Shown one piece after another: positions 41,133 through 58,432 of a stretch of DNA of 64,000 bases. How positions within the stretch are numbered: position 1 is the stretch's first letter; every line of letters begins with the position of its first letter. The notes below the pieces were generated by a model, which was given only the letters and a program-made list of their open reading frames with translations, searched no databases and was not told the DNA's origin. This stretch comes from an uncultured Bacteroidota bacterium. GTDB lineage: Bacteria > Bacteroidota > Bacteroidia > Chitinophagales > Chitinophagaceae. The DNA lies in the NCBI GenBank assembly GCA_903906365.1, contig CAIVKC010000045.1, positions 1 through 64,000 of the forward strand, in the 5' to 3' direction. Made by a program: the position numbers and the translations under genes.

Positions 41133-41183
41133 ATGAATTCTATTTTTCACATACATCATCACCATACTTACCTGGGCAGGTAG
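41133..41183 (+). CDS. hisL: Histidine operon leader peptide (attenuator peptide)
   Basis: A 16-codon open frame reads MNSIFHIHHHHTYLGR, with His at position 6 and four consecutive His at 8-11 (codons at 41148-41150 and 41154-41165). It lies between a good promoter and an intrinsic terminator, 142 nt before hisG. Ribosome stalling at the His codons under histidine shortage is the established mechanism for his attenuation in enterobacteria. The peptide has no function of its own beyond sensing charged tRNA-His. His density, position and the matching RNA structures together make chance unlikely. Confidence 0.88.
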   Translation: MNSIFHIHHHHTYLGR

Positions 41184-41250
41184 GCCGGAGATGTTTTGTG
41201 CAAATAAAAATAAAACATAAAGGGCTTACCACACGGTAGGCCCTTTTTCT
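41167..41250 (+). promoter_or_regulatory. His attenuator: alternative RNA stems and intrinsic terminator
   Basis: Four segments are visible. Segment 1 (CUUACCU, 41167-41173) pairs with segment 2 (AGGUAGG, 41178-41184). Segment 2 extended (GGUAGGCC, 41179-41186) pairs instead with segment 3 (GGCUUACC, 41223-41230) as antiterminator. Segment 3 (GGGCUUACC, 41222-41230) pairs with segment 4 (GGUAGGCCC, 41235-41243) as a terminator followed by TTTTTCT. Segment 2 is repeated almost identically as segment 4, and segment 1 as part of segment 3. A ribosome stalled on the His codons would cover segment 1 and free segment 2 for antitermination. Confidence 0.88.
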
Positions 41251-41324: not shown

Positions 41325-42188
41325 ATGGGGGAGACCAAATTAAAAATTGCCATTCAGAAAAGCGGCAGACTCCATGACGGGTCAGTGAATCTGCTGCGGG
41401 AATGCGGTATTGATGTAATCAATGGTATCAATAAGCTCAAGACCGAGTCAAGCAATTTTCCGCTGGAACTGTATTTTTTCAGGGATGATGACATCCCCCA
41501 GTATGTAGAAGATGCGGTGGCTGACATCGGTATTGCCGGAGAAAATGTGGTCTATGAAAGCAACCGGAAAGTGGGCGTGGTCGAAGACCTCGGTTTTGCC
41601 ACCTGCCGGCTGAGCATTGCTGTCAGAAAGGGAGACCAGTACGACGGAGCCTCCTTTCTGGAAGGGAAAAAGATTGCAACCACCTATCCTTTGCTTTTGC
41701 AGCAGTTCCTGGATAAAAACCAGGTAAAGGCAGAGATACATCAAATCAGCGGTAGTGTGGAGATTGCCCCTGGTATCGGACTGGCCGACGCCATTTGTGA
41801 CATTGTCAGCAGCGGATCCACATTATTTATGAATGGACTGAAGGAAGCAGAAATGATACTGAAATCCAGGACCGTGTTGATTAAAAACGGGAATTTAAGC
41901 GCGGAAAAGGAAGCCTTACTGGAGAAATTGCTTTTTCGCGTACAGGCTGTTAAAAAGGCAAAGAATAACAAGTATATTCTTCTTAATGCCCCCAATGAGA
42001 ACCTGCAGCAGATCATTTCCTATTTGCCTGGCATGAAAAGCCCGACGGTTCTTCCCCTGGCTCAACCCGGCTGGAGCAGCGTGCACAGCGTACTGAACGA
42101 AAATGATTTCTGGGAAATTATTGAAAAATTGAAATCAGCCGGTGCTCAGGGTATCCTGGTTGTACCTATTGAAAAAATGATTCTATAA
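41325..42188 (+). CDS. hisG: ATP phosphoribosyltransferase, long form (HisG)
   Basis: A 287-residue long-form HisG, first committed enzyme of histidine synthesis (ATP + PRPP to PR-ATP). The catalytic half shows LKIAIQKSGRLHDGSVNLL, the PRPP loop ADAICDIVSSGSTLFMNGL at about 149-167, and VADIGIAGENVV. The last about 75 residues form the ACT-like regulatory domain (GILVVPIEKMIL) through which histidine inhibits long-form HisG. No HisZ is needed. It is the first structural gene behind the His attenuator. Confidence 0.95.
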   Translation: MGETKLKIAIQKSGRLHDGSVNLLRECGIDVINGINKLKTESSNFPLELYFFRDDDIPQYVEDAVADIGIAGENVVYESNRKVGVVEDLGFATCRLSIAVRKGDQYDGASFLEGKKIATTYPLLLQQFLDKNQVKAEIHQISGSVEIAPGIGLADAICDIVSSGSTLFMNGLKEAEMILKSRTVLIKNGNLSAEKEALLEKLLFRVQAVKKAKNNKYILLNAPNENLQQIISYLPGMKSPTVLPLAQPGWSSVHSVLNENDFWEIIEKLKSAGAQGILVVPIEKMIL

Positions 42189-42197
42189 TTACATAAA

Positions 42198-43487
42198 ATG
42201 AAATTAATAGACATAACAAAGGAAGGTTTACCCCCTGCAGGGGGATGGGAGCAACTGCTGGCCAGGCCCGTTTTGGATAACAGGTCCCTGGAGGCTACCG
42301 TAGTAAATATTTTGAAGGAAGTAAGGGAAAATGGGGACGAGGCCGTCAAAAGATTTTCCCTCATGTTCGATAAAGTCTCCATCGGTGACCTGATCGTGCC
42401 TGAGGATGACATTATCCAGGCTGCCTCCCTGGTTAGTGAAGAACTCAAGACAGCCATCCGGCAGGCAAAGGAAAATATTGAAACCTTTCACTACAGGCAG
42501 TTTCAGCAGCCGGAAACGGTGGAAACCATGCCGGGGGTATTCTGCTGGCGCAGAACGGTACCCATCGAAAAGGTGGGATTATATATTCCCGGAGGATCCG
42601 CCCCGCTGTTTTCCACCCTGCTTATGCTGGCTGTACCGGCGGCGATAGCCGGCTGCCGGGAGATCATTCTATGCTCCCCCCCCGACACACAGGGTAAACT
42701 GCACCCGGCCATTCTGTATGCAGCCAGCATCTGCGGTATCACCCGGATTTACCGGGTGGGTGGTGTTCAGGCCATTGCGGCCATGGCCTACGGGACCAAG
42801 TCGATGCCCCGGGTTTACAAGATTTTCGGACCCGGTAACCAATATGTTACCTGCGCCAAGCAACTGGTTCAAAAAGACGGATTGGCCATCGACATGCCGG
42901 CCGGACCCAGCGAAGTGGCTATTTTCGCGGATGAATCGGCCAATGCTGCCTTTGTAGCAGCGGATCTGCTTTCCCAGGCCGAACATGGTGTGGACAGTCA
43001 GGTCATACTGGTAACCACCTCGGCCCAGCTGGCCGGCCAGGTTGAAAAGGAGATCAATCAACAGCTCCCTGAGCTGCCTCGGAACAAAATTGCCGCACGG
43101 GCACTTGATAACAGCCTGGTCATTCTGGTTAATAATGATCAGGATGCCATACAGCTGCTCAATGAGTATGCCCCTGAACATCTTATTTTGGCTTGCAAGG
43201 AGGCAGATGCGCTGGCCGATCAGGTCATTAATGCCGGCTCCGTATTTCTGGGGAACTATTCCCCGGAAAGTGCGGGGGACTATGCGAGCGGAACCAATCA
43301 TACCCTGCCCACCAACGGCTATGCCAGATCTTACAGCGGGGTCAGCGTGGACAGTTTTGTCAAGAAAATTACCTTCCAGAAATTAACTTACCAAGGGCTG
43401 GCCGGTATCGGTAAAACAGTGGAGCTGATGGCCGCTGCCGAAGGGCTGCAGGGGCATGCCCGGGCGGTGCGGATCCGGTTGGAATAA
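42198..43487 (+). CDS. hisD: Histidinol dehydrogenase (HisD)
   Basis: A 429-residue zinc- and NAD-dependent enzyme that oxidises histidinol twice to histidine, the last pathway step. Family motifs are YIPGGSAPLFSTLLMLAVPA, GPGNQYVTCAKQLVQ, DMPAGPSEVAIFADE, LLSQAEHGVDSQVILVT (with catalytic/zinc Glu and His), EYAPEHLIL and the terminal zinc-site region GNYSPESAGDYASGTNHTLPT. Length is normal. It begins 9 bp after hisG. Confidence 0.96.
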   Translation: MKLIDITKEGLPPAGGWEQLLARPVLDNRSLEATVVNILKEVRENGDEAVKRFSLMFDKVSIGDLIVPEDDIIQAASLVSEELKTAIRQAKENIETFHYRQFQQPETVETMPGVFCWRRTVPIEKVGLYIPGGSAPLFSTLLMLAVPAAIAGCREIILCSPPDTQGKLHPAILYAASICGITRIYRVGGVQAIAAMAYGTKSMPRVYKIFGPGNQYVTCAKQLVQKDGLAIDMPAGPSEVAIFADESANAAFVAADLLSQAEHGVDSQVILVTTSAQLAGQVEKEINQQLPELPRNKIAARALDNSLVILVNNDQDAIQLLNEYAPEHLILACKEADALADQVINAGSVFLGNYSPESAGDYASGTNHTLPTNGYARSYSGVSVDSFVKKITFQKLTYQGLAGIGKTVELMAAAEGLQGHARAVRIRLE

Positions 43488-43530
43488 CCATCATTGCCCT
43501 GTTTGGGAATATTGAGAAAAAGCATAAATT

Positions 43531-44580
43531 ATGTTTCAGTTAGAAAATCTTTTACGGGAAAATATCCGTCAGCTGACCCCTTATTCTTCGGCCAGGGATG
43601 AATTTAAGGGTGAGGCCAGGATATTTTTGGATGCTAATGAAAACAGCCTCGGATCTCCTCTGACCCGTTGGTATAACAGATATCCTGACCCGCTGCAGTG
43701 GAAACTGAAGGAAGCCATCGGTCTTATCAAAGGAGTTGACCCAACTAATCTCTTTTTGGGGAACGGAAGTGACGAATGCATAGACCTGCTCTACCGGGCT
43801 TTCTGTAATCCGGGTAAGGACAATATCATTATCAATCCACCCACATACGGAATGTATGAAGTAAGTGCCCGGATCAATGACGTACAAATAAAAAAGGCAC
43901 CTCTGCTCGATAATTTCCAGCTGGACCTGGTGCATTTGGAAAACCTGGTGGATGATGCCACCAAAATCATCTGGATATGTTCACCAAACAATCCCACGGG
44001 CAATGCGATTGACCGAGAAGACATTGAAATTGTGCTGAATAATTTTGAAGGCCTGGTGGTAGTCGATGAAGCGTATATCAATTTTTCCAGGCACAAATCA
44101 TTCATTCAGGAACTCGGGGATTACCCCAACCTGGTAGTTCTGCAAACATTCAGCAAGGCATGGGGACTTGCCGGACTGAGGCTTGGAATGGCATTTGCCG
44201 CTGAAAACATCATTGATATTTTAAACAGGATTAAACCCCCTTATAATATCAACCAGTCTACCCAGGAAATTGCACTAACGGCCCTCCAGGAGGTCGGACA
44301 GGTCAATGAAATGATTAAGCTCATTGTCGCGATGCGGGATGAACTCAGCGTCCAGCTTAGTTCCCTTCCCTTTGTATTAAAGGTCTACCCAAGCGATGCC
44401 AACTTCCTGCTGGTCAAAATGTCAGATGCCCAGTCTGTTTATGACCATTTGCTCCGCGAGGGTATTGTGGTCAGAAACCGCAGCAACGTCGAGCTCTGCG
44501 CGGGCTGCCTTAGAATTACCGTTGGAACAGATTCAGAAAATATGGGATTGATAACCGCGCTCAGGCATTTTTCCGCGTGA
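43531..44580 (+). CDS. hisC: Histidinol-phosphate aminotransferase (HisC)
   Basis: A 349-residue fold-type I PLP aminotransferase. The PLP lysine K209 lies in QTFSKAWGLAGLRLGMA. Other motifs are FLDANENSLGSP near the N-terminus, LGNGSDECIDLL, SPNNPTGNAI with the PLP-ring-binding Asn, VVVDEAYINF, and the C-terminal arginine context CLRITVGT. It converts imidazole-acetol phosphate to histidinol phosphate. It lies 43 bp after hisD. Confidence 0.95.
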   Translation: MFQLENLLRENIRQLTPYSSARDEFKGEARIFLDANENSLGSPLTRWYNRYPDPLQWKLKEAIGLIKGVDPTNLFLGNGSDECIDLLYRAFCNPGKDNIIINPPTYGMYEVSARINDVQIKKAPLLDNFQLDLVHLENLVDDATKIIWICSPNNPTGNAIDREDIEIVLNNFEGLVVVDEAYINFSRHKSFIQELGDYPNLVVLQTFSKAWGLAGLRLGMAFAAENIIDILNRIKPPYNINQSTQEIALTALQEVGQVNEMIKLIVAMRDELSVQLSSLPFVLKVYPSDANFLLVKMSDAQSVYDHLLREGIVVRNRSNVELCAGCLRITVGTDSENMGLITALRHFSA

Positions 44581-45924: not shown

Positions 45925-45935
45925 TACATTCAAAA

Positions 45936-46364
45936 ATGAGGCTTTATATCAGCAAGGCTGCCTTATTGGCGATGCCTGGTTTAGTTGGTTTTGCCCTGAC
46001 AGGGTCCTATCGCCAGGGTGGTTTAACAGATTCCATAGAAAGGGGCAAAAAAGTATACGCCGAACAATGCCTTTCCTGCCACCAGGTGGATGGGGGAGGG
46101 GTACCCCATATGATTCCCCCTTTGATAAAAACCAAATGGGTGCTGGGCGATAAAGCTACGCTGGTTAATACCGTACTGCTTGGACTCAACGGGGAAATTG
46201 AAATAGACGGTAATACTTTCCATAATGTAATGGCCCCGCACAGTGAATTGTCAGACCTGCAGATTGCAGATGTTTTGACTTTCGTCAGGAACAGTTTCGG
46301 AAATAAGGCTAAAGCAGTTACTGCCGCCGAGGTTAAAAAAATCAGGGCAAACCTAAAACATTAA
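45936..46364 (+). CDS. Exported class I cytochrome c
   Basis: A 142-residue protein with a signal peptide-like N-terminus (MRLYISKAALLAMPGLVGFA) and one haem-binding motif CLSCH at 45-49, within IERGKKVYAEQ...QVDGGGVPHMIPPL. A downstream NVMAPHSELSD supplies a candidate axial Met at about 98. It is typical of the small cytochromes that accept electrons from periplasmic dehydrogenases. ATG 45936 is preferred over an earlier in-frame start that would destroy the signal peptide. Together with the preceding gene it forms an electron-transfer pair inside the his operon. Confidence 0.85.
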   Translation: MRLYISKAALLAMPGLVGFALTGSYRQGGLTDSIERGKKVYAEQCLSCHQVDGGGVPHMIPPLIKTKWVLGDKATLVNTVLLGLNGEIEIDGNTFHNVMAPHSELSDLQIADVLTFVRNSFGNKAKAVTAAEVKKIRANLKH

Positions 46365-46464: not shown

Positions 46465-47604
46465 ATGAAAAAAATCCTGTTTATCGACCGCGACGGAACA
46501 CTTATTAATGAAGCACCGCCATCCTACCAGGTTGATAGTTTTGATAAACTTGTTTTTTATCCGGCCGTATTCGAGTTCATGGGCAGAATTGCCAGGGAAT
46601 TTGATTTTGAGCTGTTGATGGTCACCAACCAGGACGGGCTGGGCACAGCGGCATTCCCTGAAGAGAGTTTCTGGGGAGTGCAGCAGTTTGTCATTAACAG
46701 CTTTGCTGGGGAAGGTGTCCATTTCAGCGGGGTTTTTATTGACAGAAGCTATCCTGCCGACCATGCTCCCACCAGGAAACCTGGAACGGGGATGCTGACG
46801 GCCTATATGAACAATGAGGCCTATGATTTGGAAAACTCTTTTGTGATCGGGGACAGGATCACGGATGTGCAGCTCGCCAAAAACCTTGGTTGCAAAGCCA
46901 TATGGTTAAACAATGACCCCGAACTGGGGGGAAAGGAAATCAGTGATTCCAGGGCAGCCCTGGATGAGGTTATAGCATTGGAAACCCCATCCTGGAGCAG
47001 GATTTATGAATTTCTAAAACTGGGTCTTAGATCGGTTGTGCACGAAAGGAATACCAGTGAAACGCAGATCAGGATTGAATTACAAATAGACGGAAGCGGA
47101 AAGGCCCATATCAACACCGGGATAGGCTTTTTTGACCATATGCTCGAACAAATTGCGCGTCATGGTAAAATGAATCTCACTGTCCGCACCCACGGGGACC
47201 TGCATATAGATGAACACCATACCATTGAGGATACCGCCATTGCGCTGGGAGAGGCCTTTGCCAAGGCCCTGGCTGATAAGAGAGGCATGGAACGCTATGG
47301 TTTTGCCCTGCCCATGGATGAATCCGAAGCTAAAGTGCTCATAGATTTCGGGGGCAGGAACTGGCTGGTCTGGAATGCAACCTTCAATAGGGAAAGCATT
47401 GGCGGCATGCCTACTGAAATGTTTTTTCATTTTTTCAAATCCTTCAGCGATGCCGCTAAATGCAACCTCCATATTTCATGTACCGGCGAAAATGAGCACC
47501 ATAAAATAGAAGCCATTTTCAAGGCCTTTGCCAAAGCCATTCGTATGGCAGTAAAAAGAGATCCTTTAAGTAATTACCTGCCCACTACCAAAGGAATCCT
47601 TTGA
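46465..47604 (+). CDS. hisB: Bifunctional histidinol-phosphatase / imidazoleglycerol-phosphate dehydratase (HisB)
   Basis: A 379-residue fusion. Residues 1-170 are a HAD phosphatase (nucleophile D8 and D10 in [22 protein letters not shown], and [16 protein letters not shown]). Residues about 188-379 are IGP dehydratase with metal sites [34 protein letters not shown] and [18 protein letters not shown]. The enzyme does pathway steps 7 and 9. The loop at 92-103 that in E. coli HisB carries three Cys and one His for zinc reads [12 protein letters not shown] and has no cysteine. It is separated from the cytochrome gene by 100 bp. Confidence 0.94.
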
Positions 47605-47636: not shown

Positions 47637-47918
47637 TCAGGCCAGTACATCGCTGAATTCCGGTTTTTTGTCAAAAACCGATTTTGCAAAAGGACAGAGC
47701 GGGATGATTTTGATACCCTGCTTCCTGGCATATTCCACCGCGGTATGGACAAGCTGGTAACCCACATTCTTTCCGCGCAACCGGTCATCTACCTCCGTAT
47801 GTTCAATGATCATTTTGTCAGGAGTGGGCATGGTGTATACCAACTCTGCCTCGATGGCTCCATCCTGACCCACGTAAAACAGGCCTTTGTTGCCGAGCAA
47901 TTTATGCTGGATAAGCAT
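47637..47918 (-). CDS. Small GNAT-fold N-acetyltransferase (YjdJ-like)
   Basis: A 93-residue single-domain GNAT protein of the short YjdJ/NATD1-like group. It has the core motif IIEHTEVDDRLRGKNVGYQLVHTAVEYARKQGIKIIPLCPFAKSVFDKKPEF, with the acetyl-CoA loop RLRGKNVGYQL. The ending is the family's diagnostic LCPFAKSVF. The substrate is unknown. I start at ATG 47918, where family similarity begins; an ATG at 47954 is possible. It is the only minus-strand gene between hisB and trpE, lying between the two attenuated operons. Confidence 0.85.
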   Translation of the reverse strand: MLIQHKLLGNKGLFYVGQDGAIEAELVYTMPTPDKMIIEHTEVDDRLRGKNVGYQLVHTAVEYARKQGIKIIPLCPFAKSVFDKKPEFSDVLA

Positions 47919-47954
47919 GTGCTGATTTTTTGAACAAGGTACCAATTGTTCCAT

Positions 47955-48418: not shown

Positions 48419-48450
48419 TTTGGCAAAATCATTTTTCCAATTCATATTTG
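48419..48450 (+). promoter_or_regulatory. Promoter of the trp operon
   Basis: TTTG (48419-48422), 20 nt, CATATTTG (48443-48450, 7 of 8 with TAnnTTTG). By the SRP RNA ruler, transcription should start near 48455-48457, at or just before the leader ATG (48458). Confidence 0.6.
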
Positions 48451-48457
48451 CACTGCG

Positions 48458-48520
48458 ATGAGCAATAATATTCAAAATAACAATTGGTGGTGGCATGCAA
48501 ACTCCGAACGGGGCGTGTAA
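48458..48520 (+). CDS. trpL: Tryptophan operon leader peptide (attenuator peptide)
   Basis: A 20-codon open frame whose residues 10-12 are three consecutive Trp (codons at 48485-48493), in the context QNNNWWWHANSERG, ending at TAA 48518-48520. It is followed by a strong intrinsic terminator and then trpE. Tandem Trp codons are the hallmark of trp leader peptides, which sense charged tRNA-Trp. Three UGG codons in a row in a short frame at this place are very unlikely by chance. The predicted mRNA 5' end is within about 3 nt of the AUG. Confidence 0.9.
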   Translation: MSNNIQNNNWWWHANSERGV

Positions 48521-48580
48521 TGCTGTCAATTTGAATTGTATTACCATATTTGGCCCCGATCTATTCGGGGCTTTTTTATT
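48502..48580 (+). promoter_or_regulatory. Trp attenuator: alternative RNA stems and intrinsic terminator
   Basis: Terminator: GCCCCGA (48553-48559) pairs with TCGGGGC (48565-48571), 7 bp with a 5-nt loop, followed by TTTTTTATTTT. Competing antiterminator: CGGGGC (48509-48514, in the last leader codons) pairs with GCCCCG (48553-48558), brought close by a middle hairpin GTAAT/ATTAC (48517-48521 with 48540-48544). Protector stem 1:2: CTCC (48502-48505) with GGGG (48510-48513). A ribosome stalled on the Trp codons (48485-48493) would cover the 48502 arm and favour the antiterminator. Confidence 0.85.
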
Positions 48581-48633: not shown

Positions 48634-50061
48634 ATGGGCGTTATGAAAAAAATTGAAATACAGACAACATTCAGGAAAATGCTCTCCGATGTCCACACGC
48701 CGGTGGGTATTTACCTGAGACTCAGGGACCGGTTCCGGGATACCATTTTACTGGAAAGTACCGATTATCATGCGGCGGAGAACAGCTATTCTTTTATTGC
48801 CATCAATGCCATTGCTGGAATCGAAATTACTGATGTGGATAGCATCGAATTTAAATTGCCGGGTGAAAGGCCTCAAAGGGTTCCTGTAAAAAACAGGACG
48901 GATGTACCGGGTATGTTGTGGGATTTTATGCAGCGTTTTGAGGTAAATCCCGTTTCGGAGAAACCGGTCAAAGTTGCCCAGGGATTGTTCGGGTATACCA
49001 CTTTTGATGCAGTTCAGTTCTTTGACACCATCAGCCTGTCGCCCGGAAAGGCGGGCAATGATTCGGCCATTCCCATGGTACGCTACCGGTTTTACCAGTA
49101 TGTCATTGCCATCAATCACTTCAAGGATGAATTGTTCCTGTGTGAAAATAAGGTAGCGGGCCTTGAAAGTGAACTGCAGGTGGTTGAAGCCCTCATAAAA
49201 AGCAAGGATGTTCCTACCTATCCCTTTTCGACATCCGGGCCGGAAACCTCCAATTTGACCGACCAGGCCTACATTCAGATGGTGGAAAAGGGCATACAGA
49301 GCTGTTTCAGGGGGGATGTCTTCCAGATTGTGCTGAGCAGGCGTTTCCAGCAGGGCTTTACAGGGGATGAGTTCAACGTCTACCGTGCCCTGCGTAATAT
49401 CAATCCTTCTCCCTACCTGTTCTTTTTTGACTACGGAGACTATAAACTCATGGGGTCCTCACCTGAATCTCAACTCATCATCCAAAACGGTAAGGCCATC
49501 GTTCATCCGATTGCGGGTACTTTTAAGCGAAGCGGGGATGATGATACAGACCAGCGCGAAGCCGACAGGCTGCTCCATGATGCCAAGGAAAATGCAGAAC
49601 ACGTCATGCTGGTAGACCTCGCCCGCAATGACCTCAGCCGGATTTGTGATGAAGTGACTGTCATGCATTACCGCCAGGTTCAGTATTACTCCCATGTGAT
49701 TCACCTGGTCAGTGAAGTGAGGGGAAAAGTCCCCGAGGGATGTAACCCTTTTGAATTAATGGCTGTTACATTTCCGGCAGGCACCCTCAGCGGAGCTCCC
49801 AAATTCCGGGCCATGGAATTGATAGACAGCTATGAGCCGACCGCCAGGAGCTATTACGGGGGGTGTATCGGTTTTATGGGTTTTGACGGAAGCTGCAACC
49901 AGGCCATTATGATCCGTACTTTTTTGAGCCGGCAGAACACGCTTTTCTATCAGGCAGGTGCCGGAATAGTGGCAGCCAGCCAACCTGCCAGTGAGTTGCA
50001 GGAGGTAAACAATAAACTGGGGGCCCTCAAGAAGGCCATAGAACTGGCCACCCACATTTAA
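48634..50061 (+). CDS. trpE: Anthranilate synthase component I (TrpE)
   Basis: A 475-residue chorismate-utilising enzyme that makes anthranilate with ammonia from TrpG. The N-terminal regulatory half includes LLESTDYHAAENSYSFIAIN, which carries the LLES motif used by Trp for feedback inhibition. The catalytic half has GDVFQIVLSRRFQ, LMGSSPESQLI, HPIAGTFKRS, ENAEHVMLVDLARNDLSRIC, TFPAGTLSGAPKFRAMELI and YYGGCIGFMGFDG. ATG 48634 or 48643 are both possible. It is the first structural gene behind the Trp attenuator. Confidence 0.95.
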   Translation: MGVMKKIEIQTTFRKMLSDVHTPVGIYLRLRDRFRDTILLESTDYHAAENSYSFIAINAIAGIEITDVDSIEFKLPGERPQRVPVKNRTDVPGMLWDFMQRFEVNPVSEKPVKVAQGLFGYTTFDAVQFFDTISLSPGKAGNDSAIPMVRYRFYQYVIAINHFKDELFLCENKVAGLESELQVVEALIKSKDVPTYPFSTSGPETSNLTDQAYIQMVEKGIQSCFRGDVFQIVLSRRFQQGFTGDEFNVYRALRNINPSPYLFFFDYGDYKLMGSSPESQLIIQNGKAIVHPIAGTFKRSGDDDTDQREADRLLHDAKENAEHVMLVDLARNDLSRICDEVTVMHYRQVQYYSHVIHLVSEVRGKVPEGCNPFELMAVTFPAGTLSGAPKFRAMELIDSYEPTARSYYGGCIGFMGFDGSCNQAIMIRTFLSRQNTLFYQAGAGIVAASQPASELQEVNNKLGALKKAIELATHI

Positions 50062-50099: not shown

Positions 50100-50681
50100 A
50101 TGAAAATACTGGTTTTTGATAATTACGATTCCTTCACCTATAACCTGGTTCACCTGGTTGAGCAGATTACTCATGAAAAAGTCGATGTATTCCGCAATGA
50201 CCAGCTTCCAATGGAAAAGGTAAAGCAGTATGATAAAATTATTCTTTCGCCCGGACCCGGAGTGCCCGCTGAGGCCGGTATGCTTCTAGCGCTGATCCGG
50301 GAATATGCCGCCACAAAATCCATCCTGGGGGTATGCCTTGGACACCAGGCTATCGGAGAGGTATTTGGGGCGGCACTGGTCAATCTCTCGGCTGTATACC
50401 ACGGAGTGGCTACCAGTATCAACCTGCTGCCTCCCTCGGTAACCCGCCCGGATTACACCTTAAAAGGGCTGCCCAACCAAATCACCGTTGGGCGATACCA
50501 CAGCTGGGTAGTTAGTGACCAGGCTTTTCCGGATACCCTGGAAATAACAGCCCGCGACGACAGCGGCTATATCATGGCACTCCAGCATAAAACCTATGAT
50601 GTTCAAGGAATGCAATTCCATCCGGAAAGCATCCTGACGCCGGACGGGGAAAAAATTATGCGCAACTGGCTTGGAAAATAA
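50100..50681 (+). CDS. trpG: Anthranilate synthase component II, glutamine amidotransferase (TrpG)
   Basis: A 193-residue class I glutamine amidotransferase. The triad is C79 in ILGVCLGHQAIGE with His and Glu in GMQFHPES near the C-terminus. DNYDSFTYNLVH and LSPGPGVPAEAGM are the family start and oxyanion loop. It delivers ammonia to TrpE. The same protein may also serve a PabB enzyme for folate synthesis, since this family is often shared. It is 38 bp after trpE and 29 bp before trpD. Confidence 0.95.
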   Translation: MKILVFDNYDSFTYNLVHLVEQITHEKVDVFRNDQLPMEKVKQYDKIILSPGPGVPAEAGMLLALIREYAATKSILGVCLGHQAIGEVFGAALVNLSAVYHGVATSINLLPPSVTRPDYTLKGLPNQITVGRYHSWVVSDQAFPDTLEITARDDSGYIMALQHKTYDVQGMQFHPESILTPDGEKIMRNWLGK

Positions 50682-50710
50682 GCATTGACAACAAAGAACC
50701 TGCAGAAGAC

Positions 50711-51703
50711 ATGAAAAAGACACTACAATATTTATTCGAATACAAGACACTCTCCCGGAAGATGGCCGCTGAAGTGCTCGTCAATATTTCCAAAGGACTG
50801 TACAATGAAAGCGAGATGGCAGCCTTCATAACCGTATTTCTCATGCGGAGTATTACCATCGATGAACTGCAGGGCTTCCGTGATGCCCTGCTGGAATTGT
50901 GTGTGCGGGTGGATTTGAACGGGCATGAAGTAATGGATATAGTGGGTACGGGCGGCGACGGTAAAAATACCTTCAATATTTCAACCCTTGCCTGTTTCAT
51001 TGTGGCAGGTACCGGCCAAAAAGTGGCCAAGCACGGAAATTACGGTGCATCTTCGATCAGCGGCGCCTCCAATGTTATGGAAATGCTGGGTTATAGGTTT
51101 AAAAATGACCCGGGCCAGCTCAAAAAGGAAGCGGAAATAGCCAATATCTGTTTTTTGCATGCTCCTCTTTTTCACCCGGCCCTAAAAGCCGTAGGGGCCA
51201 TCCGCCGGAATTTGGGTATCCGGACATTCTTTAACATGCTGGGACCCATGGTTAACCCGGCCTTCCCGGTATTCCAGCTGGTCGGTGTATATAACCTGGA
51301 AATGGCCAGGATATATAATTATCTGTTGCAGCAGACAGGCGGTTCTTTTACCATAATCCACGGCCTGGATGGCTATGATGAGATTTCCCTGACCAATGAC
51401 ACCAAGGTTATCAATAACCAGGGGGAGCGGATTATGACACCCGAACAACTCGGCAAAAGGTCCGTTGAAGCCAAGGATATTTATGGCGGAAACACGGTGG
51501 AAGAAGCGGCCCGGATATTTACCCAAATCCTGCAAGGAGAAGGAACCTGGGCCCAGAATGCCGTAGTGCTGGCTAATGCCGCCATGGCTTTGCACTGCAC
51601 GGGTAATTTCGAAAGCTACGATCATTCTTATGAGGCTGCCGTCAGAAGCCTGGAAGGGGGAATGGCCCGGGATGCATTAAAAAAATTGATTCAATTGCAG
51701 TGA
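50711..51703 (+). CDS. trpD: Anthranilate phosphoribosyltransferase (TrpD)
   Basis: A 330-residue class III phosphoribosyltransferase joining anthranilate with PRPP. It has an N-terminal helical domain (SRKMAAEVLVNISKG), the PRPP-binding VGTGGDGKNTFNIST at about 78-92, KHGNYGASSISGASNVMEMLG, and RRNLGIRTFFNMLGPMVNP. The C-terminal half is complete (GEGTWAQNAVVLANAAMAL). It is a separate protein, not fused to TrpG. Confidence 0.95.
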   Translation: MKKTLQYLFEYKTLSRKMAAEVLVNISKGLYNESEMAAFITVFLMRSITIDELQGFRDALLELCVRVDLNGHEVMDIVGTGGDGKNTFNISTLACFIVAGTGQKVAKHGNYGASSISGASNVMEMLGYRFKNDPGQLKKEAEIANICFLHAPLFHPALKAVGAIRRNLGIRTFFNMLGPMVNPAFPVFQLVGVYNLEMARIYNYLLQQTGGSFTIIHGLDGYDEISLTNDTKVINNQGERIMTPEQLGKRSVEAKDIYGGNTVEEAARIFTQILQGEGTWAQNAVVLANAAMALHCTGNFESYDHSYEAAVRSLEGGMARDALKKLIQLQ

Positions 51704-51741
51704 TACCCTAAGCTACATAATACAGGTAAAGAATTGGTTAT

Positions 51742-52533
51742 ATGAATATTCTGGAAAAAATAGTTGAACATAAACGGGCGGAGATAGCTGAACGAAAGCG
51801 AAGTATTTCTGTTATGGAACTGGAACAGAGGGCTTTTTTCAGCCGGCAACCCTTATCGCTCAAAAAGTTCCTCCTGGATCAGACAAGGACGGGAATCATT
51901 GCGGAATTCAAACGAAAGTCCCCATCCAAAGGTATCATCAATGAGCGGGCTGCGGTGGCTGAGGTAACGGCCGCCTATGCCCTTCATGGGGCATCGGGAC
52001 TTTCCGTCCTTACAGACAGCCATTTTTTCGGAGGCAGGCTGATGGATCTGGAGGAAGCGCGTTTCAATGAAGTTCCTATCTTGCGAAAGGATTTTATGAT
52101 CGATGAATTCCAGGTCATTGAAGCCAGGTCAGCGGGAGCTGATGTGATCCTGCTTATTGCAGCCTGCCTGAGCCCGGCAAGGGTAAAATCACTGGCTGCC
52201 ACTGCCAGGTCACTGGGCATGGAGGTGTTGCTTGAAATTCATCAGCACAGTGAACTGGATCATATCTGTGATGACATTGATCTGGTGGGTGTTAACAACC
52301 GTGACTTGAGGACTTTCACGGTAAACGTTGAGCTATCTGTTGATCTTGGAAGACAGATTCCGGCCGAAAAGATTAAAATCTCAGAGAGCGGAATAGGTTC
52401 CGTGGAAACCATAAAGTATTTGAAGAATGCCGGATTCAGGGGGTTCCTGATCGGTGAAAATTTCATGAAACAACCTGAACCCTCGATTGCTTTTGCCTCA
52501 TTCGTTCACCAGCTAAAGGGCGGCGCACTATGA
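51742..52533 (+). CDS. trpC: Indole-3-glycerol phosphate synthase (TrpC)
   Basis: A 263-residue TIM-barrel enzyme that closes the indole ring. Typical segments are ILEKIVEHKRAEIAERK at the N-terminus, IIAEFKRKSPSKGIIN with catalytic Glu/Lys, LSVLTDSHFFGG, PILRKDFMIDEFQV, GVNNRDLRTF, SESGI and GFLIGENFM. It is not fused to TrpF as in enterobacteria. Its stop overlaps the trpF start by 4 bp (ATGA), indicating translational coupling. Confidence 0.95.
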   Translation: MNILEKIVEHKRAEIAERKRSISVMELEQRAFFSRQPLSLKKFLLDQTRTGIIAEFKRKSPSKGIINERAAVAEVTAAYALHGASGLSVLTDSHFFGGRLMDLEEARFNEVPILRKDFMIDEFQVIEARSAGADVILLIAACLSPARVKSLAATARSLGMEVLLEIHQHSELDHICDDIDLVGVNNRDLRTFTVNVELSVDLGRQIPAEKIKISESGIGSVETIKYLKNAGFRGFLIGENFMKQPEPSIAFASFVHQLKGGAL

Positions 52534-53165
52534 GAATTAAAGTATGTGGTATGACCCAGATCAACCAGGTAAAGGAACTGGACGAAATGGGTATTGATTT
52601 TGCGGGTTTCATATTCTATCCCAAATCACCACGCTATGTGGGCAGGCACCTGCAGGGAGCTACCTTGAAGAAAACCAGGCTTCGGCTGGGTAAGGTAGGC
52701 GTTTTTGTTCACCCCACCTATGAAGAAGTAATGAAGCAGGTGGATGAGTTTGGGCTTGATATGGTGCAGTTGCACGGCGATGAAACAACCAGATTCTGCG
52801 AACAGGTGGCCAATTATGTTACGGTTATTAAAGTATTCCGGCTGGCGGAAAATGACCCCATTGACTGGATTATCCGGCCTTATGAAGATTGCTGTGACAT
52901 GTTTTTATTTGACACCCTGGGGGTGGGTTATGGAGGTACGGGGAAAAAATTCAACTGGGATATTCTTAAAACCACCTCTTTGGATAAACTTTTTTTCCTT
53001 AGCGGGGGTATTGAGCCGGAGGATGCGGCAAAATTAAAGGAGTTTGCCAAAGAACCAGTAGCCAGGAAATTATTTTCCATTGACATCAACAGCAAGTTCG
53101 AACTGGAGCCTGGCATTAAGGATATGGGTAAGATCAGGAAGATGTTGGAAGATCTGCGGTCATGA
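52530..53165 (+). CDS. trpF: Phosphoribosylanthranilate isomerase (TrpF)
   Basis: A 211-residue TIM barrel that isomerises PRA to CdRP. Catalytic Cys is in IKVCGMTQINQV (residue 6), catalytic Asp in the FDTLG segment, and the phosphate sites are FLSGGIEPED and FSIDINSKFELEPGIKD. FAGFIFYPKSPRYV and GVFVHPTYEEV are typical. The family usually ends with SSGVE where this protein reads DINSKFELEPG, a mild divergence also common in this phylum. Confidence 0.94.
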   Translation: MRIKVCGMTQINQVKELDEMGIDFAGFIFYPKSPRYVGRHLQGATLKKTRLRLGKVGVFVHPTYEEVMKQVDEFGLDMVQLHGDETTRFCEQVANYVTVIKVFRLAENDPIDWIIRPYEDCCDMFLFDTLGVGYGGTGKKFNWDILKTTSLDKLFFLSGGIEPEDAAKLKEFAKEPVARKLFSIDINSKFELEPGIKDMGKIRKMLEDLRS

Positions 53166-53258: not shown

Positions 53259-54470
53259 ATGAATAAGACAAGTGAACAAATTTTTTCCAGACCCACAGCC
53301 CAGGGGTATTATGGTAAATTCGGCGGAGCCTATATTCCGGAGATGCTCCACCGCAATGTGGAAGCACTGAAAAGCCGCTATCTTGAAATCATCTATGAGG
53401 CGGGTTTTCAAAAGGAGTTCCATGCCCTGCTGAAGGACTTTGTTGGCCGCCCGACCCCGCTGTACCTGGCAAAAAGGATGAGCAGGCGGTACAATACGAA
53501 TATATACCTGAAAAGGGAGGATCTCTGTCATACAGGTGCACATAAGATAAACAATACCATTGGACAGATTCTGCTGGCAGAAAAAATGGGTAAAAAGCGG
53601 ATCATCGCCGAAACCGGAGCCGGACAGCATGGGGTCGCCACAGCCACGGTTTGCGCCCTTAAGGGCATGGAGTGCATTGTGTATATGGGCGAAAAGGACA
53701 TTGACAGGCAGGCACCCAATGTGGCTAGGATGAAAATGCTGGGTGCCCGGGTGATCCCAGCCACCAGTGGCAGCAAGACCCTAAAGGATGCCACCAATGA
53801 GGCGATCCGTGACTGGATTAATAATCCGCACGATACCCACTATATTATTGGCAGCGTGGTGGGACCGCATCCCTATCCGGATATGGTGGCCCGGTTTCAG
53901 AGTGTTATCAGCGAGGAAATACGCTGGCAGTTAAAACAGGAAACCGGTTCACCCTTCCCAACACATGTCCTGGCCTGCGTCGGCGGTGGCAGTAACGCGG
54001 CTGGAGCCTTCTATCATTTTCTGGATGATCTGCACGTCGGTTTAATTGCTGTGGAAGCTGCCGGACATGGCCTAAGCAGCGGCTTGAGTGCAGCTACCAC
54101 CCAGCTTGGCAGCCCTGGCATACTTCATGGCAGCAAAAGCCTCGTCATGCAGACTGCGGATGGTCAGGTCATTGAGCCACACAGTATTTCAGCAGGATTG
54201 GATTATCCGGGTATCGGGCCCCTACATGCGCACCTTTTTGAAAGTGGCCGGGCCACTTTTCTGAGTGCAACCGACGATGAGGCCCTGGCAGCAGCTTTTG
54301 ACCTGGCTAAAACGGAAGGAATTATTCCTGCCCTGGAATCCGCTCACGCACTGGCTGCCCTGGAACAGCTGTCGCTCAATGAAAAGGATACGCTGGTAAT
54401 CTGCCTGAGTGGCCGCGGTGATAAGGACCTGGCAGCCTATATGCATGCCATGGAAAATGGCGATTTCTGA
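53259..54470 (+). CDS. trpB: Tryptophan synthase beta chain (TrpB)
   Basis: A 403-residue PLP enzyme. The PLP lysine K96 lies in EDLCHTGAHKINNTIGQ, and the phosphate-binding loop is CVGGGSNAAGAFYHF. The substrate-binding region carries AETGAGQHGVATATVCAL. It starts with GYYGKFGGAYIPEML, the true TrpB1 N-terminus, not TrpB2. It condenses indole with serine and forms the alpha2-beta2 complex with TrpA encoded next. The 93-bp gap after trpF is the largest within the trp genes, and I see no terminator in it. Confidence 0.96.
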   Translation: MNKTSEQIFSRPTAQGYYGKFGGAYIPEMLHRNVEALKSRYLEIIYEAGFQKEFHALLKDFVGRPTPLYLAKRMSRRYNTNIYLKREDLCHTGAHKINNTIGQILLAEKMGKKRIIAETGAGQHGVATATVCALKGMECIVYMGEKDIDRQAPNVARMKMLGARVIPATSGSKTLKDATNEAIRDWINNPHDTHYIIGSVVGPHPYPDMVARFQSVISEEIRWQLKQETGSPFPTHVLACVGGGSNAAGAFYHFLDDLHVGLIAVEAAGHGLSSGLSAATTQLGSPGILHGSKSLVMQTADGQVIEPHSISAGLDYPGIGPLHAHLFESGRATFLSATDDEALAAAFDLAKTEGIIPALESAHALAALEQLSLNEKDTLVICLSGRGDKDLAAYMHAMENGDF

Positions 54471-54526: not shown

Positions 54527-55300
54527 ATGAGCCGGATAAAGAAATTTTTCGAATTAAAGAAGAACAGGATACTGAATGTCTATTGCACCGCCGGGTATCC
54601 CGGACTCAGCAGTACACTGGAGGTCATGAAATCCCTGCAACAAAACGGAGCTGACCTCATTGAACTGGGAATGCCCTATAGTGATCCACTGGCTGACGGG
54701 CCTGTCATCCAGGCATCCAGCAGCAAAGCCCTGATGAATGGCATGACCATTGAGCTTCTTTTCGAGCAATTGAAGGGATTTCGGGATAGCATCCATGTGC
54801 CTGTGGTACTGATGGGTTATATGAATCCCGTACTCCAGTATGGATTCCCGGAATTCTGCCAGTCAGCCCGGGAAGCCGGCATCGATGGATTGATCCTGCC
54901 TGATCTCCCTGTGTATGAATATGAGACAGAATATGGTGAAATCATCCGTCGCAACGGCCTGGACTTTATATTCCTGGTCACCCCCGAAACCCCTGAGGAA
55001 AGAATTCGTACACTCGACAGCCTGAGTTCAGGCTTCCTGTATGCAGTCTCCTCTTCCTCCACCACCGGGAGCGATCACAACATGACTGATGTAGGGGCCT
55101 ACCTGCAGCGGCTCAGGGATATGAAACTAAAAAACCCGGTACTTGTAGGATTTGGCATTGGAGACCGGAAAAGCTTTGACGCCGCCTGCGCTTATGCAAA
55201 TGGGGCCATCATCGGAAGCGCCTATATCAAAACCCTGGAACATGCCCAGGATATTGAAAAGGCCACGGCTTCTTTTTTGAAGAACATATTAAACAGATAA
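54527..55300 (+). CDS. trpA: Tryptophan synthase alpha chain (TrpA)
   Basis: A 257-residue TIM barrel that splits indole-glycerol phosphate to indole. Catalytic E46 and D57 are in LIELGMPYSDPLADGP. Other motifs are VLMGYMNPVLQYG, GLILPDLPVYE, FLVTPETPEERI, YAVSSSSTTGSD and VGFGIGDRKS. I start at ATG 54527 (MSRIKKFFE); a TTG 24 bp earlier adds non-conserved residues. hisH begins only 19 bp after its stop, with no terminator visible between them. Confidence 0.95.
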   Translation: MSRIKKFFELKKNRILNVYCTAGYPGLSSTLEVMKSLQQNGADLIELGMPYSDPLADGPVIQASSSKALMNGMTIELLFEQLKGFRDSIHVPVVLMGYMNPVLQYGFPEFCQSAREAGIDGLILPDLPVYEYETEYGEIIRRNGLDFIFLVTPETPEERIRTLDSLSSGFLYAVSSSSTTGSDHNMTDVGAYLQRLRDMKLKNPVLVGFGIGDRKSFDAACAYANGAIIGSAYIKTLEHAQDIEKATASFLKNILNR

Positions 55301-55319
55301 AACTAAACAAGCACCACCT

Positions 55320-55910
55320 TTGAATCTGACCATAATTAAATACAATGCGGGTAATATTCAGTCGGTCCTTTATGCCCTGGAAAGGATAGGGGCAGCAGCC
55401 GTTGTTAGCGATGACCCTCAGCTCATAGCCTCATCAGACAAAGTGATATTCCCGGGGGTGGGTGAGGCCAGCAGTGCCATGACCTATCTTAGGGAGCGCA
55501 ATCTCGATAGGCTATTGAAGGACCTTAGCCAGCCTGTGCTGGGCATCTGCCTTGGTATGCAACTCATGTGTGCCCGCAGCGAGGAGAATGACACCAATTG
55601 CCTGGGAATCTTTGATGAAGAAGTGAAGAAATTTACCCCCGGCACCAAGGAATGGAAAGTGCCGCAGATCGGATGGAACAACATTCATCATCTTAAGACA
55701 GGGCTTTTCCGAAATGTTCAGGAAGGCAGTTTCTGTTATTTTGTTCACGGTTACGCCGTTTCCCTGGGAAGTCATACCATAGCGGAAACGGATTATATTC
55801 TTCCCTATTCTTCAGCCCTGAACAGGAAAAATTTTTATGGCGTGCAGTTTCACCCTGAGAAAAGTGCCGTTGTGGGAGAACAAATATTAAAAAATTTCTT
55901 GAGTATATAA
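55320..55910 (+). CDS. hisH: Imidazole glycerol phosphate synthase glutaminase subunit (HisH)
   Basis: A 196-residue class I amidotransferase. The nucleophile C77 is in VLGICLGMQLM, and the His/Glu pair is in GVQFHPEKS near the C-terminus. The N-terminal NLTIIKYNAGNIQSV and FPGVGEASSAM are diagnostic for HisH over other amidotransferases. It feeds ammonia to HisF. The start must be TTG 55320, giving MNLTIIKYN. It lies 19 bp after trpA and therefore most likely on the trp transcript. Confidence 0.95.
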   Translation: MNLTIIKYNAGNIQSVLYALERIGAAAVVSDDPQLIASSDKVIFPGVGEASSAMTYLRERNLDRLLKDLSQPVLGICLGMQLMCARSEENDTNCLGIFDEEVKKFTPGTKEWKVPQIGWNNIHHLKTGLFRNVQEGSFCYFVHGYAVSLGSHTIAETDYILPYSSALNRKNFYGVQFHPEKSAVVGEQILKNFLSI

Positions 55911-55911
55911 T

Positions 55912-56625
55912 ATGGAAATTATTCCCGCAATAGATATCATCGATGGCAAATGCGTCAGGCTGACCCAAGGGGATTACGCACAAAAAACAATATACAATGA
56001 AAATCCCCTGGAAGTAGCCAGGCAATTTGAGGATGCCGGGCTCCAAAGACTTCACCTGGTCGACCTGGACGGGGCCAGGGAGGGCAGGGTCCGTAACTGG
56101 AAAGTACTGGAAACTTTGTCCTCAAAAACTTCCTTAAAGATTGATTTCGGGGGTGGCATCAAACAGGAAGGGGATCTCTACATTGTTTTCAATTCAGGGA
56201 CTGCTTATGCTACCATAGGCAGTCTGGCCGTACGGCAGGAAGCCCTATTTACCGATTGGATCAAACGATATGGGGCAGACCGGTTTTTACTGGGTGCCGA
56301 CGTGAAAAATGAAAAGATCGCCATTGGCGGCTGGCTTGAAATTACCGATATCTGGATATATGATTTTATTGAAAAGTATACTTCCCTGGGTATCCGGCAG
56401 ATTTTTTGCACAGATGTCAGTAAGGATGGCAAACTGGAAGGGCCTTCCCTTTATTTGTACAGGGAGGTTCTCCGGCAGTTCCCAGACCTGCATCTGATTG
56501 CCAGCGGCGGGGTCAGTTCGCTGCAGGATCTCGACGAGCTTCAAAAGGCAGGCTGTCTGGGTGCTATTGTGGGGAAAGCCATCTATGAGGGCAGGATAAC
56601 CCTGAAGGAACTGGTCAGATTTTAA
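55912..56625 (+). CDS. hisA: ProFAR isomerase (HisA)
   Basis: A 237-residue (beta-alpha)8 enzyme that isomerises ProFAR to PRFAR. D8 in IPAIDIIDGKCVRLTQGDY is the general base. The second catalytic Asp is in LGADVKNEKIAIGGW. Phosphate sites are FGGGIKQEGD and ASGGVSSLQDLDEL. Length is slightly short but complete. Its ATG follows hisH with one base between stop and start, so the two are coupled. Confidence 0.95.
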   Translation: MEIIPAIDIIDGKCVRLTQGDYAQKTIYNENPLEVARQFEDAGLQRLHLVDLDGAREGRVRNWKVLETLSSKTSLKIDFGGGIKQEGDLYIVFNSGTAYATIGSLAVRQEALFTDWIKRYGADRFLLGADVKNEKIAIGGWLEITDIWIYDFIEKYTSLGIRQIFCTDVSKDGKLEGPSLYLYREVLRQFPDLHLIASGGVSSLQDLDELQKAGCLGAIVGKAIYEGRITLKELVRF

Positions 56626-56972
56626 AAAATAGGAAAACGCCACATGGGTTGCAATTTATTCCCTACTGGTCTTCAGATACAATCGCTCCCAAAATGGCTG
56701 ATCTGCGGTTTGCAGCTGCAGTCTGCAGCGGACTTTCAGGCCGCCAGCAATGGGTGGGTTGGTTAGCGGGTAGCATAGGTAACTCCATTTGGGGTTGACA
56801 GGCTTAGGCAGGACTGGAAGGGGATATCCGGAAACGATGTATGTAAGGATGCCTCACCGCTAATCAGATGGGTCCGTTTATAACGCCTATTGGCCAGGCA
56901 ACAGAAAATAACAGGTGGGCCGGATATAAGCCCGGGATTTGGGCTGGCCTTAACAACAATAAATTGATATTT
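56626..56972. other. 347-bp gap between hisA and hisF
   Basis: No separate gene is seen. The frame preceding hisF stays open for 35 codons (from 56868) but is not HisF-like. A GATATTTG box overlaps the hisF start codon itself, and its nearest TTTG is 24 nt upstream, so it is not a convincing promoter. No terminator hairpin is evident. The gap is unusual inside an otherwise tight run. Confidence 0.4.
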
Positions 56973-57734
56973 GTGCTGACTAAAAGAATTATTCCCTGCC
57001 TTGACATCCGCGATGGCCGCACAGTAAAAGGGGTGAATTTTGAGGATATCCGCGATGCAGGCGACCCCGTGGAACTGGGTTCCTTTTATGCCCGGCAGGG
57101 AGCCGATGAACTGGTATTTCTGGATATTACGGCCACCCATGAAAAAAGGAAGACCCTGCATGAACTGGTAAACAGGATAGCACATCAGATCAATATCCCT
57201 TTTACGGTAGGGGGCGGGATTTCTTCGCCCCAGGATGTCAGTATCCTGCTGCAAAACGGGGCAGATAAAATTTCCGTAAATACAGCGGCCTTCGAAAGGC
57301 CGGAACTGGTCACCCAGCTGGCCAGGGAATTTGGCAGCCAGTGTGTGGTGCTGGCCATTGACACCAAAAGGGAAGCGGACGGGCAATGGTACGTTTATCT
57401 GAACGGGGGCAGGAAAAAGACCGGTATGAGCTGCTATGAATGGGCCAGCAGGGCGGTTGACCTGGGTGCGGGGGAAATACTGCTGACCTCCATGAATCAT
57501 GATGGTACCAAGTCCGGTTTTGCCATCGATATTACCAGGAAACTGGCCCTAGGTTTACCGGTTCCTGTGATTGCTTCCGGTGGGGGAGGGAACCTTTCCC
57601 ACTTTGAGGAGGTTTTTGAACAGGGAAAGGCTGATGCCGCTTTGGCAGCCAGCATTTTTCACTTTAAAGAAGTGGCCATACCGGAATTGAAGCGATATTT
57701 GCAGGACAGAAACATTCCTATGCGCCTCCCTTAG
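56973..57734 (+). CDS. hisF: Imidazole glycerol phosphate synthase cyclase subunit (HisF)
   Basis: A 253-residue TIM barrel, the cyclase partner of HisH. Catalytic D11 is in [16 protein letters not shown], and the second Asp in [15 protein letters not shown]. Phosphate sites are [10 protein letters not shown] and [15 protein letters not shown]. Start is GTG 56973 ([11 protein letters not shown]); the longer open frame upstream has no family similarity. It makes IGP and releases AICAR into purine synthesis. Confidence 0.95.
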
Positions 57735-57823
57735 GCAGGTTTGCTCTTATCCGCGCGGTGAATGTAATCATGGCCGCCCCGATAACTGGAAAAAACCGGG
57801 ACGGTAATTATATTTTAAAAAAA

Positions 57824-58432
57824 TTGAATATTTTGAACATCGATTTTAACAAATATGCGGATGGCCTTGTGCCAGCCATCGTGCAGGATCATTTGACCCA
57901 AAAAGTGCTGATGCTGGGATTCATGAACCGGGAAGCTTATGAAAAAAGCATCCAGGAAGGGAAAGTGACTTTTTTCAGCAGATCCAGAAACAGGTTATGG
58001 ACCAAAGGGGAGGAGAGTGGCAATTTCCTGCTTACCAGGGGCATAGCGGCGGACTGTGACCAGGATACCCTCCTGGTGAAGGCGGAGCCGCTCGGACCGG
58101 TATGCCATACCGGGGCGGATACCTGCTGGAATGAAATAAACATCCGGGATGGTTTCCTTTTTGAATTGGAAAAGATCATTGCTCAGCGAAAGCAATCCTC
58201 ACCGGAATCCTCTTATGTATCCCGTCTTTTCTCCCAGGGCATTAACAAGATCGCCCAAAAAGTGGGGGAGGAGGCTGTGGAGCTCATTATAGAAGCAAAG
58301 GACAATAATAATGAGGAACTTTTCCTCAATGAAGCCGCCGACCTGCTTTTCCATTACCTGATACTGGTCAATGCCAAAGGATATACTTTACAGGAAGTTA
58401 TTTCCGTTTTACAAAAACGCCACAAAAAATAG
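57824..58432 (+). CDS. hisI: Bifunctional PR-AMP cyclohydrolase / PR-ATP pyrophosphatase (HisIE)
   Basis: A 202-residue fusion. The HisI half shows QKVLMLGFMNREAY, TFFSRSRNRLWTKGEESGN, metal-binding CDQDTLLVK and the zinc Cys motifs VCHTGADTCW. The HisE half from about 115 shows SYVSRLFSQGINKIAQKVGEEAVELIIEAK and LFHYLILVNAKGYTL. It carries out steps 2 and 3 of the pathway. Start is uncertain: TTG 57824 or 57833, ATG 57770 and GTG 57758 are all in frame. The two TTGs place the conserved NIDFNKYADGLVPAIVQD closest to the N-terminus. Confidence 0.93.
   Translation: MNILNIDFNKYADGLVPAIVQDHLTQKVLMLGFMNREAYEKSIQEGKVTFFSRSRNRLWTKGEESGNFLLTRGIAADCDQDTLLVKAEPLGPVCHTGADTCWNEINIRDGFLFELEKIIAQRKQSSPESSYVSRLFSQGINKIAQKVGEEAVELIIEAKDNNNEELFLNEAADLLFHYLILVNAKGYTLQEVISVLQKRHKK

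Follow-up and report, generated by a model that had tools for sequence, protein, structure and literature searches.

A tryptophan attenuator ahead of trp-hisHAFIE in Chitinophagaceae that may also sense histidine

When histidine genes come to lie at the end of a tryptophan operon, which amino acid controls them? The question is raised by a 64,000-nucleotide (nt) stretch of DNA, hereafter the window, from an uncultured Chitinophagaceae bacterium (assembly GCA_903906365.1, contig CAIVKC010000045.1, positions 1 to 64,000 of the forward strand). The gene order on one strand of the window is trpEGDCFBA-hisHA-(347 nt)-hisF-hisIE, behind a single Trp leader and terminator; a His leader of their own precedes hisGDC and hisB. 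The original prediction held that hisHAFIE appears to be transcribed from the trp operon and that, barring internal promoters, its expression would not go up under histidine starvation alone. The latter claim is now doubtful, because a His codon stands beside the Trp run of the Trp leader and tracks the linkage of trp and his genes among relatives, so that a shortage of histidine may open the Trp attenuator directly. On balance, and with ample room for doubt, we consider the leader to be a two-input attenuator, in which stalling at the His codon as well as at the Trp codons would let the captured his genes go on responding to histidine.

The leader region of the trp operon contains the following features.

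48443..48450, + strand: -7 element CATATTTG of the trp promoter (lineage-trained model, score 28.4)
48458..48520, + strand: Trp leader open reading frame (ORF) MSNNIQNNNWWWHANSERGV
48485..48493, + strand: three Trp control codons (from the sequence)
48494..48496, + strand: His codon CAT directly after the Trp run, the proposed second control codon (from sequence and conservation)
48509..48514, + strand: antiterminator strand (region 2) CGGGGC, within the leader ORF and 15 nt past the Trp run
48520..48528, + strand: segment able to pair with TGGTGGCAT of the control codons (48488-48496)
48552..48572, + strand: Trp attenuator terminator, 8 pairs and a T run

The arrangement has the sequence and folding characteristics of the ribosome-mediated attenuators of trp and his operons, namely a leader ORF with control codons, an intrinsic terminator and a competing antiterminator. 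CGGGGC can pair with GCCCCG of the terminator, and the predicted energies of the antiterminator and the terminator are -16.9 and -15.7 kcal/mol, respectively. For RNA that begins at 48507 and stops where the terminator 5' arm ends, the antiterminator is the predicted fold, and the terminator fold wins once the whole terminator is present (-21.3 kcal/mol for the full stretch). As in attenuators that sense several amino acids, Trp and His control codons are adjacent, with only a single His. An Rfam scan of the window returned the signal recognition particle (SRP) RNA and two tRNAs only, and neither Trp_leader, His_leader nor any other leader family; the leaders of the window are thus not filed under these families at the gathering score.

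The same anatomy recurs among relatives. A terminator follows 84 of the 91 readable Trp leaders; for 74 of these 84, the sequence complementary to the terminator 5' arm has its start within the leader ORF. The antiterminator strand lies 11-18 nt past the Trp run in 68/84, as opposed to 16% of shuffles, and the mean pairing score is 18.0 versus 11.8 for shuffled sequences. A pattern scan found a Trp-type leader upstream of trpE in 73/75 regions and a His-type (His-rich) leader upstream of hisG in 69/71. The Trp pattern is loose, since it also occurs in 17/71 regions before hisD, 17/78 before trpG, 19/91 before trpB and 15/375 shuffles; the codon tests below rest on individually read WW(W) runs and not on this pattern. 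A His leader belonging to hisHAFIE itself, in the trpA-hisH or hisA-hisF gap, was considered and rejected, as the His pattern was found in 2/101 regions before hisH and 0/82 before hisF.

The original prediction called for a synteny survey of the trpA-hisH junction, and this survey shows that the junction is not a chance arrangement. Among 39 relatives, 21 genomes of the same genus have a trpA match (split between contigs in G020), and hisH adjoins trpA on the same strand in all 21. The wider family sample comprised 147 genomes, with trpA above the cut-off in 109 and hisH also in 107 (one of these, G159, has hisH as a contig-end fragment below the cut-off). When linkage was defined as both genes sharing a strand with less than 2 kb between them, 77 of the 107 genomes, from 54 genera, were linked, with a median distance between model matches of 60 nt. 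The named species Chitinophaga vietnamensis (L240) has the same trp-his block; it is a member of the Chitinophagaceae, presumably also the family sampled. Of the linked genomes, 28 have hisG on the same strand at most 25 kb upstream and 48 have it elsewhere, and in one it was not found; the Trp leader is therefore the sole leader before hisHAFIE in most of them. Among the 32 non-adjacent family genomes, hisG lies 3.5-4.4 kb ahead of hisH in 25, and the fetched loci of this group read as a compact hisGDCBHAFIE. Comparison of the two states indicates that linked genomes have the trp operon interposed between hisB and hisH and that unlinked ones have a whole his operon. A HisH-HisA-HisF tree of 131 taxa requires at least nine changes in the state of linkage.

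Linkage also occurs outside the family. In 40 outgroup genomes of the class, co-directional trpA and hisH were within 3 kb of each other in three (G256, G290 and G490), and in G371 they were co-directional but 7.9 kb apart, with opposite-strand genes between them. In G256 and G290, genes resembling 3-deoxy-D-arabino-heptulosonate 7-phosphate (DAHP) synthase and aromatic amino acid hydroxylase, named by eye, stand between trpA and hisH. Such a pair of genes between trpA and hisH is seen at loci L218 and L219, an aromatic supraoperon ending in his genes. Carboxylicivirga sp. A043 (Marinilabiliales) has trpEGDCFBA followed, after 1.9 kb, by hisHAFIE. In five genomes of family f30 (G212, G231, G250, G303 and G365), trpA and hisH appear, by eye and among the matches listed, to be convergent and about 3 kb apart.

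The codon after the Trp run differs between the two states. Of the 77 linked family genomes, 17 gave no readable leader (14 lacked a usable trpE start in the DNA fetched, and in 3 that had one no leader was found), and the same applied to 11 of the 32 unlinked ones (9 and 2, respectively); the G096 leader is a manual correction of a longer reading. His directly follows the Trp run in 57/60 readable leaders of linked family genomes versus 8/21 of unlinked ones, and the addition of G256, G290 and G490 brings the linked total to 60/63. The linked leaders use 47 CAT, 13 CAC and 3 CAA codons at this position; the use of both CAT and CAC indicates that the His residue is kept across synonymous change. 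Within the genus, WWWH is present in 29/29 leaders, while the N-terminal half is free to vary. C. vietnamensis also has WWWH, and Carboxylicivirga has WWHH. The four linked operons outside the family (G256, G290, G490 and Carboxylicivirga) all have His, whereas the interrupted G371 has WWWS. That linked operons outside the family show the His codon too suggests a parallel origin in G256 and G290, in G490 and in Carboxylicivirga with its two His codons. Five unlinked relatives (L138, L148, L157, L226 and L233) carry another type of Trp leader, WWLSRWQxVNS.

On a TrpDCBA tree of 89 taxa (60 linked with His, 3 linked with another residue, 10 unlinked with His and 16 unlinked with another residue), a correlated-evolution test preferred dependence between His and linkage, with a log-likelihood of -65.9 versus -77.2, a likelihood ratio (LR) of 22.7 and p = 1.5e-4. 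The LR was 22.3 when only His was allowed to depend on linkage. The fitted rate of His loss was 3.4-4.8 in the unlinked state versus 0.12-0.15 in the linked state, and His showed the strongest dependence on linkage among nine leader traits. We regard it as an evenly balanced proposition that the Trp attenuator became a Trp/His sensor in this way, with His kept at the last sensing position when trp precedes hisHAFIE and tending to be lost after the two part.

The position of the codon is consistent with a role in sensing. The entrance footprint of a ribosome extends some 12 nt past the first base of the A-site codon. With this footprint, a ribosome stalled at the His codon covers the RNA to approximately +12, and the antiterminator strand mostly starts at +13 to +16, whereas a stall one codon further would cover the start of that strand. 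By geometry, then, the His codon is the last stall position that leaves the antiterminator strand free, and a shortage of charged tRNA-His should consequently give read-through. Elf and Ehrenberg (PMC1183508, as excerpted) place the end of the control region at the last codon whose stalling promotes the antiterminator.

In the mechanism that we propose, the trp genes and hisHAFIE would form one transcription unit from the promoter just ahead of the Trp leader. A ribosome stalled on a Trp codon would leave CGGGGC free to pair with the 5' arm of the terminator, allowing read-through into hisHAFIE, while a ribosome that reaches the stop codon would cover CGGGGC and the terminator would form. When charged tRNA-His is scarce, the ribosome would stall at CAT with the same outcome. 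Selection would keep the His codon where hisHAFIE depends on the Trp attenuator, and the captured genes would still answer to histidine.

The genes of the proposed unit and of the his segment upstream are as follows.

41133..41183, + strand: His leader ORF MNSIFHIHHHHTYLGR, His-rich
41219..41246, + strand: His attenuator terminator, 12 pairs and a T run
41325..44580, + strand: hisG, hisD and hisC (ORF list and NCBIfam family scan)
46465..47604, + strand: hisB, bifunctional (ORF list and NCBIfam family scan)
48634..50061, + strand: trpE
50100..53165, + strand: trpG, trpD, trpC and trpF, in the same order as in relatives
53259..54470, + strand: trpB (ORF list and NCBIfam family scan)
54527..55300, + strand: trpA (ORF list and NCBIfam family scan)
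55320..55910, + strand: hisH, TTG start, 19 nt after trpA (ORF list and NCBIfam scan)
55912..56625, + strand: hisA, 1 nt after hisH (ORF list and NCBIfam scan)
56884..56964, + strand: apparent decayed C-terminus of a LysE-family exporter gene, between hisA and hisF (44% identity, E 3.7e-4)
56973..57734, + strand: hisF, GTG start as picked in this analysis (ORF list and NCBIfam scan)
57758..58432, + strand: hisIE ORF, with the true start probably further in (ORF list and NCBIfam scan)

Each of the ten his and trp proteins scanned passed the NCBIfam cut-off of its own family. These coordinates agree with the tight junctions described earlier, hisH beginning 19 bp past trpA (55300/55320) and hisA one base after hisH (55910/55912), and the leaders and terminators located ahead of the two gene sets bear out the division of the pathway, with hisG, hisD, hisC and hisB behind the His attenuator and hisH, hisA, hisF and hisIE behind the Trp one. 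The 347-nt spacing between hisA and hisF had gone unmentioned. For the claim that hisHAFIE is transcribed from the trp operon, the anatomy, the conservation of the junction and the lack of a standout promoter speak in its favor; co-transcription by read-through from the Trp-attenuated operon is the simplest expectation from the sequence.

Several observations weigh against a sensing role for the His codon. One His codon would be a weak sensor beside three Trp codons. His occupies the same position in 14/55 unlinked records (the 55 comprise 21 from the family, G371, 4 from family f17 and 29 further outgroup records, among which G385, with two trpE copies, is counted twice), and three linked leaders have Gln there (G056, G115 and G153), with hisG elsewhere in all three genomes. 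Other leader traits also depend on linkage, if less strongly (H-or-Q, an overlapping trait reflecting a CA codon, LR 14.1; N at +3, 10.6; S/L at +4, 9.0; then RG, 6.3; G, 5.6; WWW, 3.5; T/A/S at +2, 1.2; and length, 1.0), which points to a general drift of unlinked leaders. The tree used was a gene tree of the trp operon itself, and G256, G290, G490, G371 and G155 were called linked or unlinked after their leaders had been seen. General drift and RNA pairing of the CAT codon are serious rivals. Should hisHAFIE lie behind a Trp-only attenuator, the His codon would be a neighbor without regulatory meaning; the well-supported linkage and attenuator, and the three Trp codons against one His, fit this account, which we nevertheless regard as unlikely, because it predicts neither the dependence of His on hisH linkage nor its rank as the leader trait most tied to linkage. 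Alternatively, CAT could be kept for RNA structure, with TGGTGGCAT and the stretch directly behind the leader stop codon forming a protecting hairpin. Nine pairs are possible in the window (48488-48496 with 48520-48528), the codon is CAT in 29/29 leaders within the genus, and the third base takes part in the best local pairing in 28/55 linked His leaders. The pairing, however, clearly exceeds that of shuffles (at most 2/40 shuffles) in only 28/84 leaders. Where the third base is outside the best pairing, linked leaders still have 27 His to 1 Gln, versus 4 His to 7 Gln in unlinked ones, and structure alone gives no reason for a dependence on linkage; as the explanation for CAT, it appears quite improbable.

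The remaining alternative is that hisHAFIE is transcribed from a start site of its own, within trpA, at hisH or hisA, or in the long hisA-hisF gap, so that the attenuator matters little. Promoters were sought with a model trained on 134 leader promoters of relatives, with the window left out. The trp promoter site at 48443 ranked first among all window positions on both strands, and ranks 2 and 3 lie directly ahead of a tRNA and the SRP RNA, which is a good control for the model. On the + strand at 53.0-58.5 kb, the best score was 13.2, at 55920; this exceeds the 11.7 of the window's own His-leader promoter, a value showing that the model is not very sensitive, but the site lacks the TTTG core and falls far short of the trp promoter. 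The next scores were 7.1, at 55315 and at 58454 (behind hisIE), and the hisF start scored 2.8. From trpA to hisIE this model found no convincing promoter and no site with both elements, and no convincing terminator was found there, only weak 5-pair stems on the + strand at 56436 and 57071. A generic sigma-70 scan listed 37 sites in the region, among them 55913, 56336, 56353 and 56964, versus 23.7 expected by chance; the generic consensus differs from the promoter consensus known for this phylum. A separate start site therefore seems very unlikely to us, and we favor the two-input attenuator over it.

Other genes stand in the intervals of these operons. The hisA-hisF gap of the window was considered for a new gene or promoter, which was rejected, as it holds the apparent LysE remnant only; full-length LysE-like ORFs occupy this gap in G011 and G164 of the same genus and in other genomes of the family. 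A sugar-dehydrogenase-like gene and a cytochrome-c-like gene lie between hisC and hisB (44623-46364); both are present in 12/25 fetched contiguous relatives, and one of the two in 2 more. A small acetyltransferase-like gene on the - strand (47637-47954) separates hisB from the trp leader, and such a gene is also found on the opposite strand upstream of trpE in several relatives. A GNAT-like acetyltransferase gene of about 135 amino acids occupies the hisH-hisA gap of L040, L045, L048 and others; these genes form a BLAST cluster of 17 loci from linked and unlinked operons alike. The SRP RNA of the genome is of the small, Bacteroidales type.

Known systems provide partial parallels. According to the excerpt of PMC1173090, the trp operon of Bacillus subtilis is inserted in the aro operon between aroH and hisHb, and the trp genes are followed by hisHb/hisC, tyrA and aroF in the naming of that paper. 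The locus studied here is likewise a supraoperon, with a whole trp operon inside another biosynthetic operon (hisGDC(B)-trp-hisHAFIE as compared with hisGDCBHAFIE) and a gene with a histidine role downstream of trpA. In contrast to B. subtilis, whose trp operon is controlled by the TRAP protein (PMC4027176, as excerpted), control here would be read from a leader peptide. The partner operon also differs, being his instead of aro, and hisHb of B. subtilis encodes an aminotransferase and not the HisH glutamine amidotransferase. E. coli trp has a comparable set of elements, a short leader ORF with Trp codons, an antiterminator and a terminator. The Trp codons of the E. coli leader are succeeded by one for Arg, and termination is relieved by starvation for Arg as well, which makes this leader a precedent for sensing at the adjacent codon. 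Unlike in E. coli, the next codon here is His, his genes are linked downstream, and the leader ORF contains the antiterminator strand. In the leaders of ilvGMEDA and thr, one attenuator answers to several amino acids made by its operon; these represent one branched pathway with several codons for each amino acid, whereas here there are two separate pathways and the second input is one codon. A His leader attenuator is present before hisG in the same genome, and none such stands before hisHAFIE in linked genomes. Leader peptides and His attenuators are treated in PMC4833913 and PMC9413887, whose excerpts contain no mention of the trp-hisHAFIE arrangement. We found no paper on the trp-hisHAFIE linkage or a Trp-His leader in the open-access collection searched, and papers outside it could exist.

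Our analysis also carries a caution, as synteny alone does not reveal which amino acid controls captured genes. If the proposed reading is true, an operon merger was followed by the adjustment of the regulator by one codon, leaving a single RNA switch to read two unrelated amino acids; this bears on how few control codons suffice for sensing. The operon, in the window and in many relatives, may well be responsive to a shortage of either tryptophan or histidine.

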